DNA of 64,000 bases from Spongiibacter tropicus DSM 19543 (GTDB lineage: Bacteria; Pseudomonadota; Gammaproteobacteria; Pseudomonadales; Spongiibacteraceae). Position 1 is the first letter of the stretch. Every line of letters begins with the position of its first letter. This document shows positions 1 through 26,186 of this stretch, in pieces. The DNA lies in the NCBI RefSeq assembly GCF_000420325.1, contig NZ_ATUS01000002.1, positions 248,001 to 312,000 of the forward strand, written 5' to 3'. Below the pieces are notes generated by a model. The model saw only the letters and a program-made list of their open reading frames with translations. It made no database searches and had not been told where the DNA came from. The position numbers and the translations under genes were made by a program.

Positions 1-3000
1 CACCTCACCCAAATCGCGCACCGCAAATTTGCCACGTAATTGAGAGCGGTGCTCCCCGCTGTCGTCCACCCACCAGTGGAGCTGGCTTTCCCTCTTGGCA
101 TCCCCCAGATCCACACCGAGCAACTGGCCGCGCAGCGACATGAAGTGCGCACCGCGTGCGTCTGGGCGCAAATCGAAACCGACTCGCCCGTAATCTTTCC
201 CACCCAGACTGAGCTGCTCGATATCCACATCCAATATCGGCAAGCTGCGCGGATCCACTGACGCCAGACCGCTTTCTCCAGCGACCTGTTCTGTCGACAG
301 TGCGGGCAGCGCCAGACGCTCGAACATCAGCACATAGGGCTCAGCTTCCGTCATCGGCACTTCGATATTACCGGCAAGTTCGCGACTATCTACCCGCAAT
401 GTCCACACCGACTCATCGCTGCGTGCACTGATCACGGCATCGTGCAACATCTGTCCAAGGGCATCCAATTCGCCCACCTGCAGACGATCAACGATCACCG
501 GTAAGGATTCCCCGCTACCCGTGTTGTGCTGCTTTTGATTCTGCAACTCCAGAAAGCGCGTTAGCGCAAGTTGCCACTGGTCCATCGCCGCAAAATCGAG
601 GGTACCAGTCACACTGACGGTATTACCGCGCAGCTCCGCGCTTGCCCCCTTACCCAGCGCAATCGCCACCGCACTCTCGTCGCCGCGCTGCTGGTAATGC
701 AGTTGAAACAGTTCACCCAGGGCAACGGTCAGCGGTGGCGCATCGGAACCCAGTCCCGCATTTACGCGAAGGGGCAACGGCTCGTTAGATGCTTTGTAGA
801 GAGGCTGGGGCAAGCGCACCGAAATGCCTTGCATGTCAGAGCGAATTTCCACCCCGGACTGATCCCCTCCCGCCCTTAACACCATGTCAACACGTGTTCG
901 CCCCTGCAGAAAACCCATGGCAGGCTGGTCAAGCCAACGCTGCACATCTGCGGCATCGATCATGCTGCTGGCATCAATGCGTACCTCGCTTTTTTCCTGA
1001 CGGATACTTGCCTTCAGCGCTTCTCCGAACAGACGGCCGCGTAATGACGGGCTGCGCAGGCCTTTCTCGGTACTGTAATACAACGGCCCCGTTATCTGGC
1101 TCAGCGACAATTTGATATCCGGCAACCACAGCAGCGGAAGATTAATATCGGCCTCTACCTCCACCGCGGGCAGGGCACGACCTTCCAGCGGGAGCTGCAC
1201 CGACACCTTCGCGCGGCTCTCGCCCTCACCCCGCCAGCCATCAATAACGTTTCCACTCAGTGCGCCAATCGGGCTGTCGCGAAACAGCGCCTGCACCTCG
1301 GCAAAGCTGGCCCGCGCTGAGGCACCGACATTCAGTTGAGGAATATCCCGTTCATTGGGGGCAATACTCACTGCAACATCACTCAGCGCAATACCGTTGA
1401 TGGACATGCCATCACCGCTGCCCCACAACTGGCCATCATCGAGATAAACCGCAGCCCGCGCCGCATTCAACGCGGGCCAGTCAGTTTGGAATTGCAGGCC
1501 GAGTTCCGATACGTCCAGAGCCAGCTGTACCGTTCGCAAATCGTGCTCGTCCGAACGCAGCGACCCTCGATAGATAAATTCGGCACGGTCCGCAACGCCC
1601 GCTTTCAAGCTGCCATCCAGCCAGGCAAGCAGACCGTCGCTCAGTATATCCGGCGCATAGCGACGAGCCGCCGCCAACGAAAGCTGCGTCCCAGAAACCG
1701 CCAGGGTCATTGCCGGCCCCACTTCCGCCCCGGCTTCAAATGGTAGATCGAGACGCAGTAAGGCGCGGAGCGGAGACTCACCATCCTTGGCGACGATCGG
1801 GCCGCTGTGCAGCGCCAAGCGCTGATCGGCGATCTTCCACTGCAGCTCCGTTGAAAAATCGGTCAGTTGAAACGGAGCGGGATACAAATCCGGAAAAGAC
1901 AGTTCCAGCGCATCGCTATCGATCAGCAGTCGACCGCGATCACGTGTCACTTCCAAGTAGCCGCTAAGCCCTGTAACCCCCGGTGCACCGTGCCAAGGGG
2001 AAAGACGTAATCCGTGCAACTCGCTGCGCAAGGCGAATTCCGGCTGCTCACCACTCTTGAGATCGACACTGACCCGCTCAAGCTTGCCGCCGGGCTGCAA
2101 GGTGTTGAGCAGCTCGGTTAACGAATCCGATAAGGCTCCGCTGTCACGCAGCAGCTCAGCACCGCTGTCCAGGGCCAGCGATGGCAGCGAAAACTGCCAG
2201 GTGCTGACGTCGGGGTGTGACATCAAGAGCCCGTCCAGCGACAGCTCCTGCTCTCGCCAATCGGCCGCAAAACGTCTAAATCCCGCCCGCCAGAATCCAT
2301 TCTGGTGACGACCATTGAAAACCATCTGAACATTCTGGAAGCTCTCATCTGAGCCCCAGAGACTGCCTATCGCCAGATTATCCGCCGACAGTTCGCCGGT
2401 GATGCCCATCCGTCGCCCGGCCTCCCACTCCAGCCAGAGCTGCCCATCAACCTTGCTGTGGATGAGCGCCTGATCATTGAAAAGTGGCGCCAGAGCGGAA
2501 AAGCGACTGCTGTCCAATGCAATGTAGGCGGTGGCGGAAAAACGGCGGTCACGAGGATCACCCAGCGCTTCGGCCAGCAACTGAATCTCGCCACTATCGT
2601 CCGCGCGGAGATTGGCATAGCTGCGGCGGAACTCACCGTCGCTCAGCCAGGAAAAATCCTCACTCTGTATGCGGCTCTGCGAGCCATCCGAGAAATGAAG
2701 ATACAGATCGAGGTGTTGCATACTGGCGCGACGCACCGCGAGGATTAAATCCAGCAGCGAATCAAAACTGCCCCCGCCCCCGGAAGTGCTGATGCCGGGC
2801 AAGTACCAGCGGCCGCCGTCATCTTGACGCAAGTGCAGGGTGAGCGACCCCAGTTTTAACTGCTTGAGACGGGGCGCCGCACCCAGCAAGCTGCCGATCG
2901 GATCCAATACCACTCGCGCCTGATCAATGATGATGGCGCCGTTGCCAATATCCAGCTGCGAGACGTTCAGTACCGGTGACAGCCCCGACCAACTTCCCTC

Positions 3001-23445: not shown

Positions 23446-24010
23446 CTATACCCGCACACTACCTCTGATCGCCGCACTGCTGCTCGTCAGCGCCTGCAGC
23501 AGCCTGCCGCCTGCAACATCAACCGACAGCGACTGGCTTATGCAAGGACGTATCGGCCTCTGGATGGGCGATCAGCAAGAAAGCAGCCAGATCCGCTGGC
23601 TGCAGTGTGGCCGTGACAATAGCCGCATTCGCCTCAGCGGCCCCATGGGAGTCGGTGGTGCCGAGATCATCAGTGACCGCTACGGAGCGGAACTCAACTA
23701 CAAAGGGGAGACTCGCCGCGCCCAGAATGCCGAACAACTTGCTGCAGAAATCGGCTGGCCCGTTCCTGTTTATGCTCTACGCTACTGGCTGCGGGGCCAG
23801 GCCGCACCTGACTCACCACTGACGGCAGAGGTCAGCCCCGACGGACGGCTTGCCCATCTGGAACAACTCGGCTGGACACTCGACTTCGCACACGATGCAA
23901 ACGCCCGTGAAGAGACGCTGCCCAAGCGGGTTGAAGCCCGCCGACAGGACGTACGCCTTAAGCTGCTGATCAGCAGCTGGTCACAAGCCAGCGAAGAATG
24001 TACAAAATGA
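23438..24010 (+). CDS. lolB: Outer-membrane lipoprotein receptor LolB
   Basis: 190 residues from the ATG at 23438, overlapping the preceding stop. LolB accepts lipoproteins from periplasmic LolA and inserts them into the outer membrane. The lipobox LVSAC places the lipidated Cys near residue 20. The family hydrophobic segments [19 protein letters not shown] and the [12 protein letters not shown] region are present, and the C-terminal [21 protein letters not shown] is typical. Overlaps ispE by 4 bp. Confidence 0.95.
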
Positions 24011-24849
24011 GCCAGCTCAGCCTACCCTGTCCCGCCAAAATCAACCTGTTCCTGCACATCACCGGGCGCCGCCCCGATGGTTACCACGAACTGCAGACGG
24101 TTTTTCAGTTGCTCGACTATGGCGACACGCTTCATCTGACTGACAGAAGCGACGGCCAACTGCACTTCCTGAGTAAACTGCCCGGCGTGAACGACGGCAA
24201 CAATCTGATCCTGCGCGCCGCAAGGCTGCTACAGGACGCCAGTGGCAGCCCTCTAGGCGCCGATATTCGCCTGGACAAGCGCCTGCCGATGGGTGGCGGC
24301 ATCGGCGGCGGCAGCTCCGATGCCGCCTCCACCTTGCTGGGCCTGAACAGCTTATGGCAACTCGGCCTGAGTCTGGATGCCCTCGCCGAGCTGGGCTTAG
24401 AGCTGGGCGCCGATGTGCCCGTCTTTGTTCGCGGACGGACCGCCTGGGCAGAAGGTGTCGGCGAGATCATTCGCCCCATCGACACCGCATCGCGCTGGTA
24501 TCTGATCCTCCGCCCCGACTGCGAAGTCAGCACCGCAGAAATTTTTTCGCATGAACAATTGACACGTCATGACTCACCCATCAAAATAGCGGCCTTTCTT
24601 GAGGGGGCCACTGGGAACAGCTGCCAAAAACTGGTCAGAACGCTGTATCCAGAAGTTGATAAGGCCTTGATTTGGCTGGATCAATTTTCCCCCGCGAGAC
24701 TCACCGGCACCGGTTCCTGTGTGTTCGCGAGTTTCGACAGCAAGAGTGCAGCAGCCAGTGTTTTGGCGCAGTGCCCGACAAACATGAGCGGGTTTATCGC
24801 GAAGGGTGTAAACCACTCGCCACTGCACACCACACTCGCTGAGGCGTAA
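24007..24849 (+). CDS. ispE: 4-diphosphocytidyl-2-C-methyl-D-erythritol kinase
   Basis: 280 residues from the ATG at 24007, whose ATGA overlaps the lolB stop; a start three codons earlier is possible. GHMP-family kinase of the MEP isoprenoid pathway. The opening [22 protein letters not shown] holds the catalytic Lys. The ATP loop is [16 protein letters not shown] (near residue 95) and the third GHMP motif is [12 protein letters not shown] (near 235). tRNA-Gln begins only 8 bp after the stop. Confidence 0.97.
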
Positions 24850-24857
24850 CGGTTTAC

Positions 24858-24932
24858 TGGGGTGTCGCCAAGCGGCAAGGCACTGGGTTTTGATCTCAGC
24901 ATTCGTAGGTTCGAATCCTACCACCCCAGCCA
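24858..24932 (+). tRNA. tRNA-Gln (anticodon TTG)
   Basis: 75-nt cloverleaf including encoded CCA. The acceptor stem is TGGGGTG/CACCCCA. The anticodon arm CTGGG-TTTTGAT-CTCAG places TTG at positions 34-36. The T arm is GTAGG-TTCGAAT-CCTAC. It lies between ispE and prs as in pseudomonads. Its 3' end and the following TTTT are repeated exactly at 25088-25109. Confidence 0.97.
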
Positions 24933-24936
24933 TTTT
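24915..24936 (+). repeat. 22-bp direct repeat, copy 1 (3' end of tRNA-Gln)
   Basis: Covers the 3' half of the T arm, the acceptor strand, the CCA and four following T residues. An identical 22-bp copy lies at 25088-25109, 173 bp away. Repeats of a tRNA 3' end are the usual scar of tRNA-targeted integration or of tail duplication. Confidence 0.85.
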
Positions 24937-24996
24937 GACAGAGTGATACGAGGTATTCGGCGCTCTGACGGGGAAAGGCAATAGACAGCCTGATCC

Positions 24997-25095
24997 GGTA
25001 GGATCGAACCGAGGTTCGATAAGTGCTTTGCACTTAGGCATCGCAAAGCGATGGCTGAAAGCCAAAGGCCCGGCAGGGCCGCAGCCCATCCTACC
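24997..25095 (+). repeat. Cluster of five short hairpins inside an outer stem
   Basis: An outer inverted repeat GGTAGGAT (24997-25004) and ATCCTACC (25088-25095) encloses five consecutive inverted repeats with almost no spacer. They are ATCGAACC/GGTTCGAT (25003-25020), AAGTGC/GCACTT (25021-25035), CATCGC/GCGATG (25039-25053), TGGCT/AGCCA (25052-25064) and GGCCC/GGGCC (25067-25080). Hairpin 1 shares two bases with the outer stem and hairpins 3 and 4 share two. The RNA could fold as a multibranch structure. GTAGGATCGAA at 24998-25008 differs at one position from the tRNA-Gln T arm, and GGTTCGA recurs at 25013. No coding potential is seen. Confidence 0.75.
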
Positions 25096-25109
25096 ACCCC
25101 AGCCATTTT
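25088..25109 (+). repeat. 22-bp direct repeat, copy 2
   Basis: Exact copy of 24915-24936. It is followed 2 bp later by a strong intrinsic terminator that would suit tRNA-Gln, suggesting this is the ancestral tRNA 3' end and that the 173-bp segment was added between. Confidence 0.85.
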
Positions 25110-25111
25110 CA

Positions 25112-25141
25112 GATTCCCGCCCTATGGCGGGAATCTTGTTT
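25112..25141 (+). terminator. Intrinsic terminator after the tRNA-Gln region
   Basis: Perfect 10-bp stem GATTCCCGCC/GGCGGGAATC with a 4-nt loop (ctat), followed by TTGTTT. It separates tRNA-Gln and its downstream element from prs. Confidence 0.85.
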
Positions 25142-25241: not shown

Positions 25242-26186
25242 GTGCACAATATGATGGTCTTCAGCGGCAACGCCAACCCCGAGCTGGCTCGCAAGGTTGC
25301 CGAGCACCTCCGCCTTCCACTCGGTGACGCCACGGTCAGCAAGTTCAGCGATGGCGAAGTCTTTGTCGAAATCAATGACAACGTACGTGGCGCCGATGTC
25401 TTCCTGATTCAACCAACCTGCGCACCGACCAATGACAATCTGATGGAGCTGGTGGTAATGGCTGATGCCATGCGCCGCGCCTCAGCCGGGCGCATTACTG
25501 CCGTCGTCCCCTACTTCGGTTATGCCCGCCAGGATCGCCGTGTACGCTCTCAGCGCGTACCTATCTCTGCCAAGGTTGTGGCTGACATCCTCAGTGGTGT
25601 GGGCATCAATCGCGTTCTGACCGTCGACCTGCACGCCGAACAGATTCAGGGTTTCTTTGACGTTCCCGTCGACAATGTCTACGGCTCACCCATTCTGCTG
25701 GACGACATTACTCGACAAAACTACCCGGACCAGATGGTCGTTTCTCCCGATATCGGCGGCGTTGTTCGCGCCCGCGCTGTCGCCAAGCGACTGAACGATG
25801 CCGACCTCGCAATTATCGACAAGCGCCGCCCGAAAGCCGGTGTCGCTCAAGTCATGCATATCATCGGTGAAGTTGAAGGCAAGACCTGCCTACTGGTCGA
25901 CGATATGGTCGATACTGCCGGAACACTTTGCAAAGCCGCCGCCGCACTGAAAGCGCAAGGCGCTGCAAAAGTTGTCGCTTACTGTACACATCCTGTATTA
26001 TCCGGGCCCGCTGTGGACAACATCAGCAATTCCGATCTGGATGAGCTGGTGGTGACTGACACGATCCCCCTGTCAGAAGCTGCAGCCAACTGCACAAAAA
26101 TTCGCCAGCTTACCCTGGCAAACCTGCTGGCCGAGTCGATTCGACGGGTCAGCAATGAAGAGTCGATCAGCGCCCTGTTCCGCTAA
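25242..26186 (+). CDS. prs: Ribose-phosphate pyrophosphokinase
   Basis: 314 residues from a GTG at 25242 with AGGA 8 nt upstream; the product begins [15 protein letters not shown], aligning with the family N-terminus. Makes PRPP from ribose 5-phosphate and ATP for purine, pyrimidine, histidine and NAD synthesis. Signatures are [20 protein letters not shown] (near 93-112, ATP binding), [17 protein letters not shown] (near 128), and the PRPP loop [12 protein letters not shown] (near 216). Confidence 0.98.

Follow-up and report, generated by a model that had tools for sequence, protein, structure and literature searches.

Two questions are raised by the interval between ispE and prs of Spongiibacter tropicus DSM 19543: what kind of element is the row of hairpins behind its tRNA-Gln gene, and does it act as DNA or as RNA? 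Within the window (the whole stretch of 64,000 nucleotides analysed here), an 8-bp outer stem encloses this row in a 99-nt segment (24997-25095), whose sequence and coordinates match the original prediction. The outer arms are exact inverted repeats (GGTAGGAT, 24997-25004, and ATCCTACC, 25088-25095), as are the arms of hairpin 1. Because the right outer arm opens an exact 22-bp copy (ATCCTACCACCCCAGCCATTTT, 25088-25109) of the tRNA-Gln 3' end (24915-24936), the complete unit spans 24933-25105 (173 bp), from directly after the CCA of tRNA-Gln to the copied CCA. The 99-nt segment is thus real but forms only the 3' part of this unit, and the exact 22-bp tail copy had been overlooked. Together with CGAACC, the left arm constitutes an antisense copy of the tRNA T arm in which one base is missing (GGTAGGATCGAACC vs GGTAGGATTCGAACC). 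The locus has the following features.

23998-24849, plus strand: ispE, the upstream gene (283-aa ORF; NCBIfam TIGR00154, 297.8 bits against a cut-off of 138.7).
24858-24932, plus strand: tRNA-Gln (UUG), the gene whose 3' end is copied (ARAGORN; Rfam RF00005, 59.5 bits).
24933-25105, plus strand: one unit of the tRNA-linked repeat (TLR) class, RtT-like, 173 bp, CCA to CCA; comparable units occur in genomes G001, G011, G012 and G013.
24933-24996, plus strand: unit flank, less conserved (identity 0.71-0.73).
24997-25010, plus strand: antisense T-arm copy GGTAGGATCGAACC, containing the left outer arm and complementing GGTTCGAATCCTACC of the tRNA with one base missing.
25003-25020, plus strand: hairpin 1, inverted repeat ATCGAACC/GGTTCGAT.
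25020-25036, plus strand: hairpin 2, TAAGTGC TTT GCACTTA, in the DNA fold and shorter in the RNA fold; compensatory changes in G011.
25039-25053, plus strand: hairpin 3, CATCGC AAA GCGATG, in the DNA and RNA folds; compensatory changes in G011.
25052-25064, plus strand: hairpin 4, TGGCT GAA AGCCA, a GNA loop closed by T-A, in the DNA fold and absent from the RNA minimum-energy fold.
25067-25080, plus strand: hairpin 5, GGCCC GGCA GGGCC, a GNNA loop, in the DNA and RNA folds.
25088-25109, plus strand: exact 22-bp copy of the tRNA-Gln 3' end (18 nt within the tRNA plus TTTT), containing the right outer arm, from repeat comparison.
25111-25136, plus strand: terminator-like hairpin past the unit, inverted repeat AGATTCCCGCC/GGCGGGAATCT, 0.80-0.87 identical to three relatives.
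25242-26186, plus strand: prs, the downstream gene (314-aa ORF; NCBIfam NF003428, ribose-phosphate diphosphokinase, 542 bits against a cut-off of 536).

Along the unit, the flank is followed by the antisense T-arm copy, by GGTTCGA (the first half of the sense T arm), by the hairpin row, and by the second T-arm half with the acceptor strand and CCA; the first 75 nt of the unit contain no intrinsic terminator. The proposal that a tRNA 3' half had been interrupted in the T loop by palindromes is borne out by this order, in which GGTTCGA and the hairpins are succeeded by ATCC, the T-stem strand, the acceptor strand and CCA. The predicted five hairpins within an outer stem beside tRNA-Gln are also found at the coordinates given for them: all five inner hairpins are present together in the DNA fold and four in the RNA minimum-energy fold, where hairpin 4, which competes with an extended hairpin 3, is lost to the longer form of the latter. 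RNA folding, which had been suggested as a check, gave -46.6 kcal/mol (z -4.95), with none of 200 dinucleotide shuffles equally stable, and the DNA fold has z values of -5.21 on the plus strand and -4.71 on the minus strand.

We are highly confident that the segment is most of one TLR-class unit of the RtT type behind tRNA-Gln. At gathering level, an Rfam scan of the locus returned tRNAs only. In a permissive scan, RtT (RF00391) was the third-best match, at 16.1 bits against a gathering cut-off of 45 (E 0.68-1.2), and aligned over its full length (model positions 1-130 of 130). By score alone such a match would be chance; we count it because the outer stem, GGTTCGA, the hairpin row and the tRNA end all align in register, because tyrT repeats had been suspected before the scan, and because the units of congener G001 score 25.4-25.6 bits, the best of the window's own lineage. 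In the other eight loci scanned alongside G001, no RtT match was obtained at E<=10. The window unit differs from RF00391 in its score below 45, and the model carries a tRNA-Tyr end; in the E. coli annotation, the RtT sRNA lies behind tRNA-Tyr.

The original prediction knew of no named family with this layout, a view that does not hold, since the defining feature of the E. coli tRNA-linked repeats, including Rfam RtT, as described in PMC8144298, is present here. As that paper recounts, tRNA-linked repeats is the class name, with 22 units at ten loci in E. coli, first described in 1978 (Egan & Landy) and again by Rudd 1999 (both as cited in PMC8144298), and the 3' end of each is identical over 18-19 bp to the gene in front; a starvation phenotype ascribed to them was retracted, and TLRs are presented there as having had no known function before its own 5S-linked cases (PMC8144298, 2021). 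Like the E. coli elements, the units studied here lie directly behind a tRNA gene, occur singly or in tandem, contain hairpins and end identically to the tRNA 3' end (18 nt here vs 18-19 there). Unlike them, they belong to the order Pseudomonadales and follow tRNA-Gln between ispE and prs, and no TLR account outside Enterobacterales and Pasteurellaceae was seen among the open-licence papers listed in a literature search. We regard the element firmly as a known kind in a new lineage, a TLR member in the Spongiibacter/Zhongshania group. The tail-copy principle is also that of the 5S-linked TLR sRNAs RrA, RrB and RrF, of which RrB is cut near the copied end; unlike the window unit, however, these copy the 5S rRNA end and, in the data given in PMC8144298, bind CsrA, for which 19 tRNA-linked TLRs score below 0.01 (PMC8144298).

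Rows of short palindromes are likewise typical of BIME/REP elements. These are dispersed in many copies with no tie to a tRNA end, whereas the genome-wide copy count proposed for the segment, run as BLAST at E<=0.001, returned this unit and the tRNA end itself with no further copies, so that the unit is single in its own genome. Only one of the 36 tRNA genes of S. tropicus has such a tail copy at <=2 mismatches (36 by ARAGORN; an Rfam tRNA search gave 37 places, and 35 have at least 250 nt downstream). A further tail match behind tRNA-Arg(cct), at +105 with 3 mismatches, looks like chance and was set aside.

By ispE, the closest named relative is S. marinus (78%), and the window is placed near Spongiibacter/Zhongshania. 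BLAST matches at E<=1 were obtained in 47 of 57 genomes (own included), most of them short or confined to the tRNA end. Tail-copy units are present in four congeners: single units in G012 (171 bp) and G013 (172 bp), two tandem units of 169 bp in G001, and three of 175 bp plus a fourth with a shortened tail in G011; G014 has a degenerate form. The lineage thus carries 1-4 units per locus, the window one, within the one to five of TLR loci. Units are present at three of the 73 named ispE loci with tRNA-Gln, one of them that of S. marinus; the ispE locus of a Cellvibrionaceae MAG carries two units of 136 bp and that of Marinimicrobium alkaliphilum one of 122 bp. Half elements are kept at named ispE loci of Litorivivens and a Spongiibacteraceae MAG, and five named Zhongshania ispE loci have no unit. 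Tandem full tRNA-Gln(UUG) genes with 122-135 bp spacing lie between ispE and prs in 14 of the 73 named loci; they are found in L052, L066, L067, L071, L074 and other Pseudomonas/Stutzerimonas loci, and we rejected these pairs as TLRs, their second members being tRNA genes. The same applies to L096, where the match is a second tRNA and the locus has a masked stretch.

Comparison of the window with three congeners gives identities of 0.87-0.89 for the hairpin domain, 0.75-0.77 for ispE, 0.83-0.84 for prs, 0.71-0.73 for the unit flank and 0.54-0.63 for the spacer before prs; the hairpin domain is therefore either constrained or kept uniform by copying. Covariation, which had been suggested as a check, was found as compensatory changes relative to G011, these being a small number of events from few species, identified by inspection of the alignment and not by R-scape. 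In hairpin 2, AAGTGC/GCACTT is replaced by AAACGC/GCGTTT (G-C to A-T and T-A to C-G), and in hairpin 3, CATCGC/GCGATG is replaced by CGTCAC/GTGACG (A-T to G-C and G-C to A-T). The outer stem changes from GGTAGG/CCTACC to GGCAGG/CCTGCC, in step with the T stem of the tRNA.

RtT-like elements are widespread and stand behind many different tRNA genes in many bacteria. RF00391 matches 97 of 369 Gammaproteobacteria genomes at E<=0.1, with 23 over the cut-off and that of S. tropicus not among them, and 47 of 398 genomes in a phylum sample at E<=0.01, with 29 over the cut-off (4 in the same order, 19 more in the same class and 24 in one family outside the class). Applied at its cut-off, RF00391 therefore detects only part of the class. 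We read 84 RtT-hit loci, part of the Gammaproteobacteria matches listed, and at their 112 tRNA genes a copy of the gene's own tail (a non-tRNA copy of the last 16 nt, <=2 mismatches, within 1000 nt) lies downstream of 68 and upstream of 2. A unit with the own 3' end of the tRNA in front was obtained from 67 of the 84 loci. The remaining 17 have no tail-copy unit by the criteria used: some are at contig ends, L152, L170 and L199 have tail copies and no called tRNA, L146, L161, L164, L169 and L190 keep a core without a good tail, and L173 follows tmRNA. In the last case (1501-2027, minus strand), the tmRNA gene is followed by an RtT-like unit whose tail copies the tmRNA 3' end exactly, and the class is therefore not confined to tRNA and 5S rRNA. 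RtT units are also found at tRNA-Lys (L313, same order) and tRNA-Pro (L312). In L164 (1355-1526), Rfam sX4 (RF02223) scores 47.4 bits (cut-off 70) over tRNA-Ser and the start of an RtT unit, and sX4 may in part be a transcript of tRNA-Ser plus TLR.

Adding eight further loci to the 67 gives a set of 97 distinct units from 75 loci and 61 genomes (lengths of 90-260 bp and tails with <=3 mismatches admitted, 3 identical units merged; the degenerate G014 unit, L007, and the fourth G011 unit stand outside it). They measure 117-203 bp, and the tail is exact in 83. A typical unit has the tRNA 3' end in antisense, often including both T arm and acceptor strand, followed by GGTTCGA, the core, AATCC and the sense copy, with GGTT[CT]GA before the core in 87 of the 97. 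In a T-arm test, 95 of 97 units are more complementary in antisense to their own tRNA than to foreign isotypes on average, and in 61 of the 97 the own tRNA is equalled by fewer than 5% of foreign tails; this test was used in place of a rank test on 12 nt of acceptor/T stem alone, which is weak (28/97 units). In a model-free survey of tRNA genes at <=3 mismatches, tail copies were found behind 7 of 43 in G069 (Tyr, Gln twice, Ser twice, Phe, Pro) and 5 of 42 in G177 (Tyr, Ser three times, Arg). Two of the tRNA loci in these genomes (L288, tRNA-Arg, G177; L277, tRNA-Pro, G069) have exact tail copies around inserts that match no known core and are possibly a second core family.

In the class at large, the strand favoured by folding is the tRNA-sense one. 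Isolated stem mismatches of the G.T and A.C types stand at 29:7 in whole units and only 8:3 in cores alone, compared with 17:43 in shuffles, and the tRNA-sense strand is therefore the folding strand. The loops follow a rule of their own. In 86 distinct cores (from the 87 units with GGTT[CT]GA, the other 10 of 97 being omitted; L051 gives no core), 112 of 150 triloops are GNA and none is TNC, 146 of the 150 are closed by C-G, and 30 of 54 tetraloops are GNNA with none TTCG. The corresponding GNA counts among triloops are 14/162 in dinucleotide shuffles, 5/21 in unit flanks, 2/26 in terminators of the same loci, 1/11 in rRNA, 1/18 in coding DNA and 15/234 in the window. One conserved hairpin has a GNA loop in 62 of 64 cases, and all four bases occur at the second position (GAA 28, GCA 19, GGA 11, GTA 4, other 2). 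The RNA forms of GNA hairpins are less stable than the DNA forms. Extraordinarily stable DNA mini-hairpins are described as following a rule of GNA or GNNA loops on two or more G-C pairs (PMC4686876). The DNA energy parameters give no GNA bonus; we therefore rejected them as proof of DNA folding, and the GNA argument for DNA is drawn solely from this literature. Unlike in the class at large, loops in the window's own lineage are less often GNA, comprising a mixture of TTT, AAA, TCA, AAC, GAC and longer forms, with GCA and GTA in G001 only, so that the DNA loop signature is weak there. For the class, we lean slightly towards action as DNA rather than as RNA.

Cores also resemble one another within genomes. 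Across amino acids, within-genome core identity is 0.713 (14 pairs) vs 0.619 with permuted genome labels, a value reached in 0 of 2000 permutations, and composition accounts for about 0.02 of the likeness (0.529 vs 0.510). G069 contributes 5 of the 14 pairs; without it, the likeness is less clear (9 pairs, 0.675 vs 0.616, reached by 28 of 2000 permutations). Between families, core identity is 0.618 both for the same (n=736) and for different amino acids (n=1634), and isotype lineages are therefore not seen. For the suggested mobile palindromic repeat, there is support for exchange among the tRNA loci of a genome, but a transposase or carrier was not established. E. coli rtT matched 27 of 72,556 plasmid records, all called non-mobilizable (among the 15 matches listed, four are chromosome-sized, and the smaller ones, of 28-385 kb, may reflect carriage by a plasmid), and the window unit matched no plasmid record. 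The structured RNA from the ispE-tRNA transcript that had also been suggested may exist here, since a terminator-like hairpin lies past the unit and none stands ahead of the core. The original interpretation as a whole is supported in part.

As the best explanation, we propose a chromosomal TLR unit selected for the folding of its sense strand as a single strand, with a DNA-level mechanism and copying. Taken as a whole, this statement has close to an even chance of being right, and the DNA-level mechanism in particular is put forward tentatively, at somewhat less than even. The class-wide loop preference would point to DNA, exposed as lagging-strand template or as the strand displaced behind tRNA transcription, where the folded hairpins may draw both tRNA ends together. 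Through slippage and recombination between the direct repeats, tandem units could then be gained or lost and the copy could stay identical to the tRNA; cores would be exchanged between tRNA loci within one genome. As the window unit precedes a terminator-like hairpin, it should also form part of the tRNA transcript, which would be in keeping with the transcription and processing of TLRs together with the tRNA or rRNA. Conservation as strong as this agrees better with a useful function than with a selfish element.

The most serious alternative, quite possible if on balance doubtful, is an RNA function, i.e., a structured 3' trailer co-transcribed with tRNA-Gln and cut at the copied end as the tRNA itself is; the stable product, about 170 nt long, would bind a protein or compete with the tRNA. 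In a special form of this explanation, the unit is a folding switch, and its antisense copy invades the T arm before the tRNA is processed. An RNA role is kept in play because no terminator precedes the core in the five loci of the window's own lineage (0/5), although 32 of 76 first units of the class do lie behind an intrinsic terminator. Past the last unit, a terminator-like hairpin is seen by sight in the window, G012, G001 and G013, and not clearly in G011. The conservation of the hairpin domain and its compensatory changes are in keeping with an RNA, but the GNA preference is absent from terminators and rRNA. By analogy, the detection of TLRs of E. coli and Actinobacillus as RNA (PMC8144298, PMC4986893) may speak against the DNA reading: the 5S-linked RrB is reported to be processed and to bind Hfq and CsrA (PMC8144298), and Northern signals are reported for RtT homologues in Actinobacillus (PMC4986893).

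Folding predictions would likewise favour the RNA explanation. The predicted acceptor-stem probability is 0.96 for the tRNA alone, 0.007 with the unit and 0.53 with a shuffled unit (n=74), and 0.06 when the tail is shuffled and the body kept (37 tRNAs). In the window, it is predicted to fall from 0.918 (transcript to 24996) to 0.006 (to 25010) on addition of the antisense copy. Pairing with the distal tail is still preferred when the body is shuffled (0.88), and we therefore discount this preference as largely a property of the energy model. These predictions are simplified, ignoring co-transcriptional folding, tertiary contacts and modification.

That the unit is a palindromic element related to REP/BIME and moved by a Y1 (RAYT-like) transposase is improbable. 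The palindrome row, the exchange between tRNA loci and one reversed core would suit such an element, and BIME attenuators are said to resemble rtT in PMC2965389. The reversed core is that of L265 (G069, behind tRNA-Phe), lying in reverse between tRNA and tail copy (reverse score 40, forward 12, shuffles <=14). Candidate reversed cores behind tRNA-Pro (G069) and tRNA-Arg (G177) were rejected, their scores being within those of shuffles, and the reverse match in L221 was attributed to the forward unit of a convergent tRNA-Glu; L219 scores 28 in reverse and 83 forward, and behind tRNA-Ser(cga) of G177 the forward core scores no higher than the best shuffle. Y1_Tnp occurs in 75 of 97 RtT-positive vs 150 of 272 other genomes (odds ratio 2.8, p 1e-4, genome size and kinship uncontrolled), and S. 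tropicus has one PF01797 (Y1 transposase) match. However, 22 of the 97 RtT-positive genomes have no Y1_Tnp match, the window unit is the one copy in its genome, and units are tied to the matching tRNA end in the 67 of 84 RtT-hit loci noted above.

Still less probable, to the point of being very unlikely, is that a mobile element once integrated at the tRNA 3' end left this unit behind, with the 22-bp repeats as attL and attR. The tRNA 3' end is the usual integration site of mobile elements, and the direct repeat does equal the tRNA 3' end. A tRNA-Ser-like tail with a complete unit and no called tRNA ahead, as if the tRNA had been interrupted by an insertion, is seen in L199 (480-900) and fits such a remnant. 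But the repeats are 173 bp apart, which leaves no space for an integrase gene, units of 169-175 bp are well conserved in several species and tandem in two, and units in the set of 97 have the lengths of 117-203 bp given above, 90-260 bp having been admitted. E. coli rtT, moreover, matched 1 of 50,697 phage records, which is a genomic contig from Salmonella filed among them, and the best 20 of 524 matches of the window to phage records cover the tRNA only. A decayed second tRNA-Gln gene filled with chance palindromes has next to no probability, for all the tandem tRNA-Gln genes at other ispE loci, given that no second tRNA is called within the unit, that the core grammar is common to RtT units on other isotypes and that the fold has a z of -4.95.

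Returning to the DNA-level reading, a broader statement can be ventured, which we consider unlikely in its entirety: TLRs would be a widespread class of single-strand DNA hairpins, in which an ultra-stable mini-hairpin core is parked behind tRNA and tmRNA genes through sense and antisense copies, moves between isotypes and is kept copy-matched to the tRNA, and in which the antisense copy, once transcribed, can trap unprocessed tRNA. Concrete tests of DNA vs RNA action are offered by how the units are distributed, by their antisense copy and loop rule, and by the asymmetry of strands and the likeness of cores within a genome. If the statement is true, one element would connect genome dynamics at tRNA ends with tRNA maturation.
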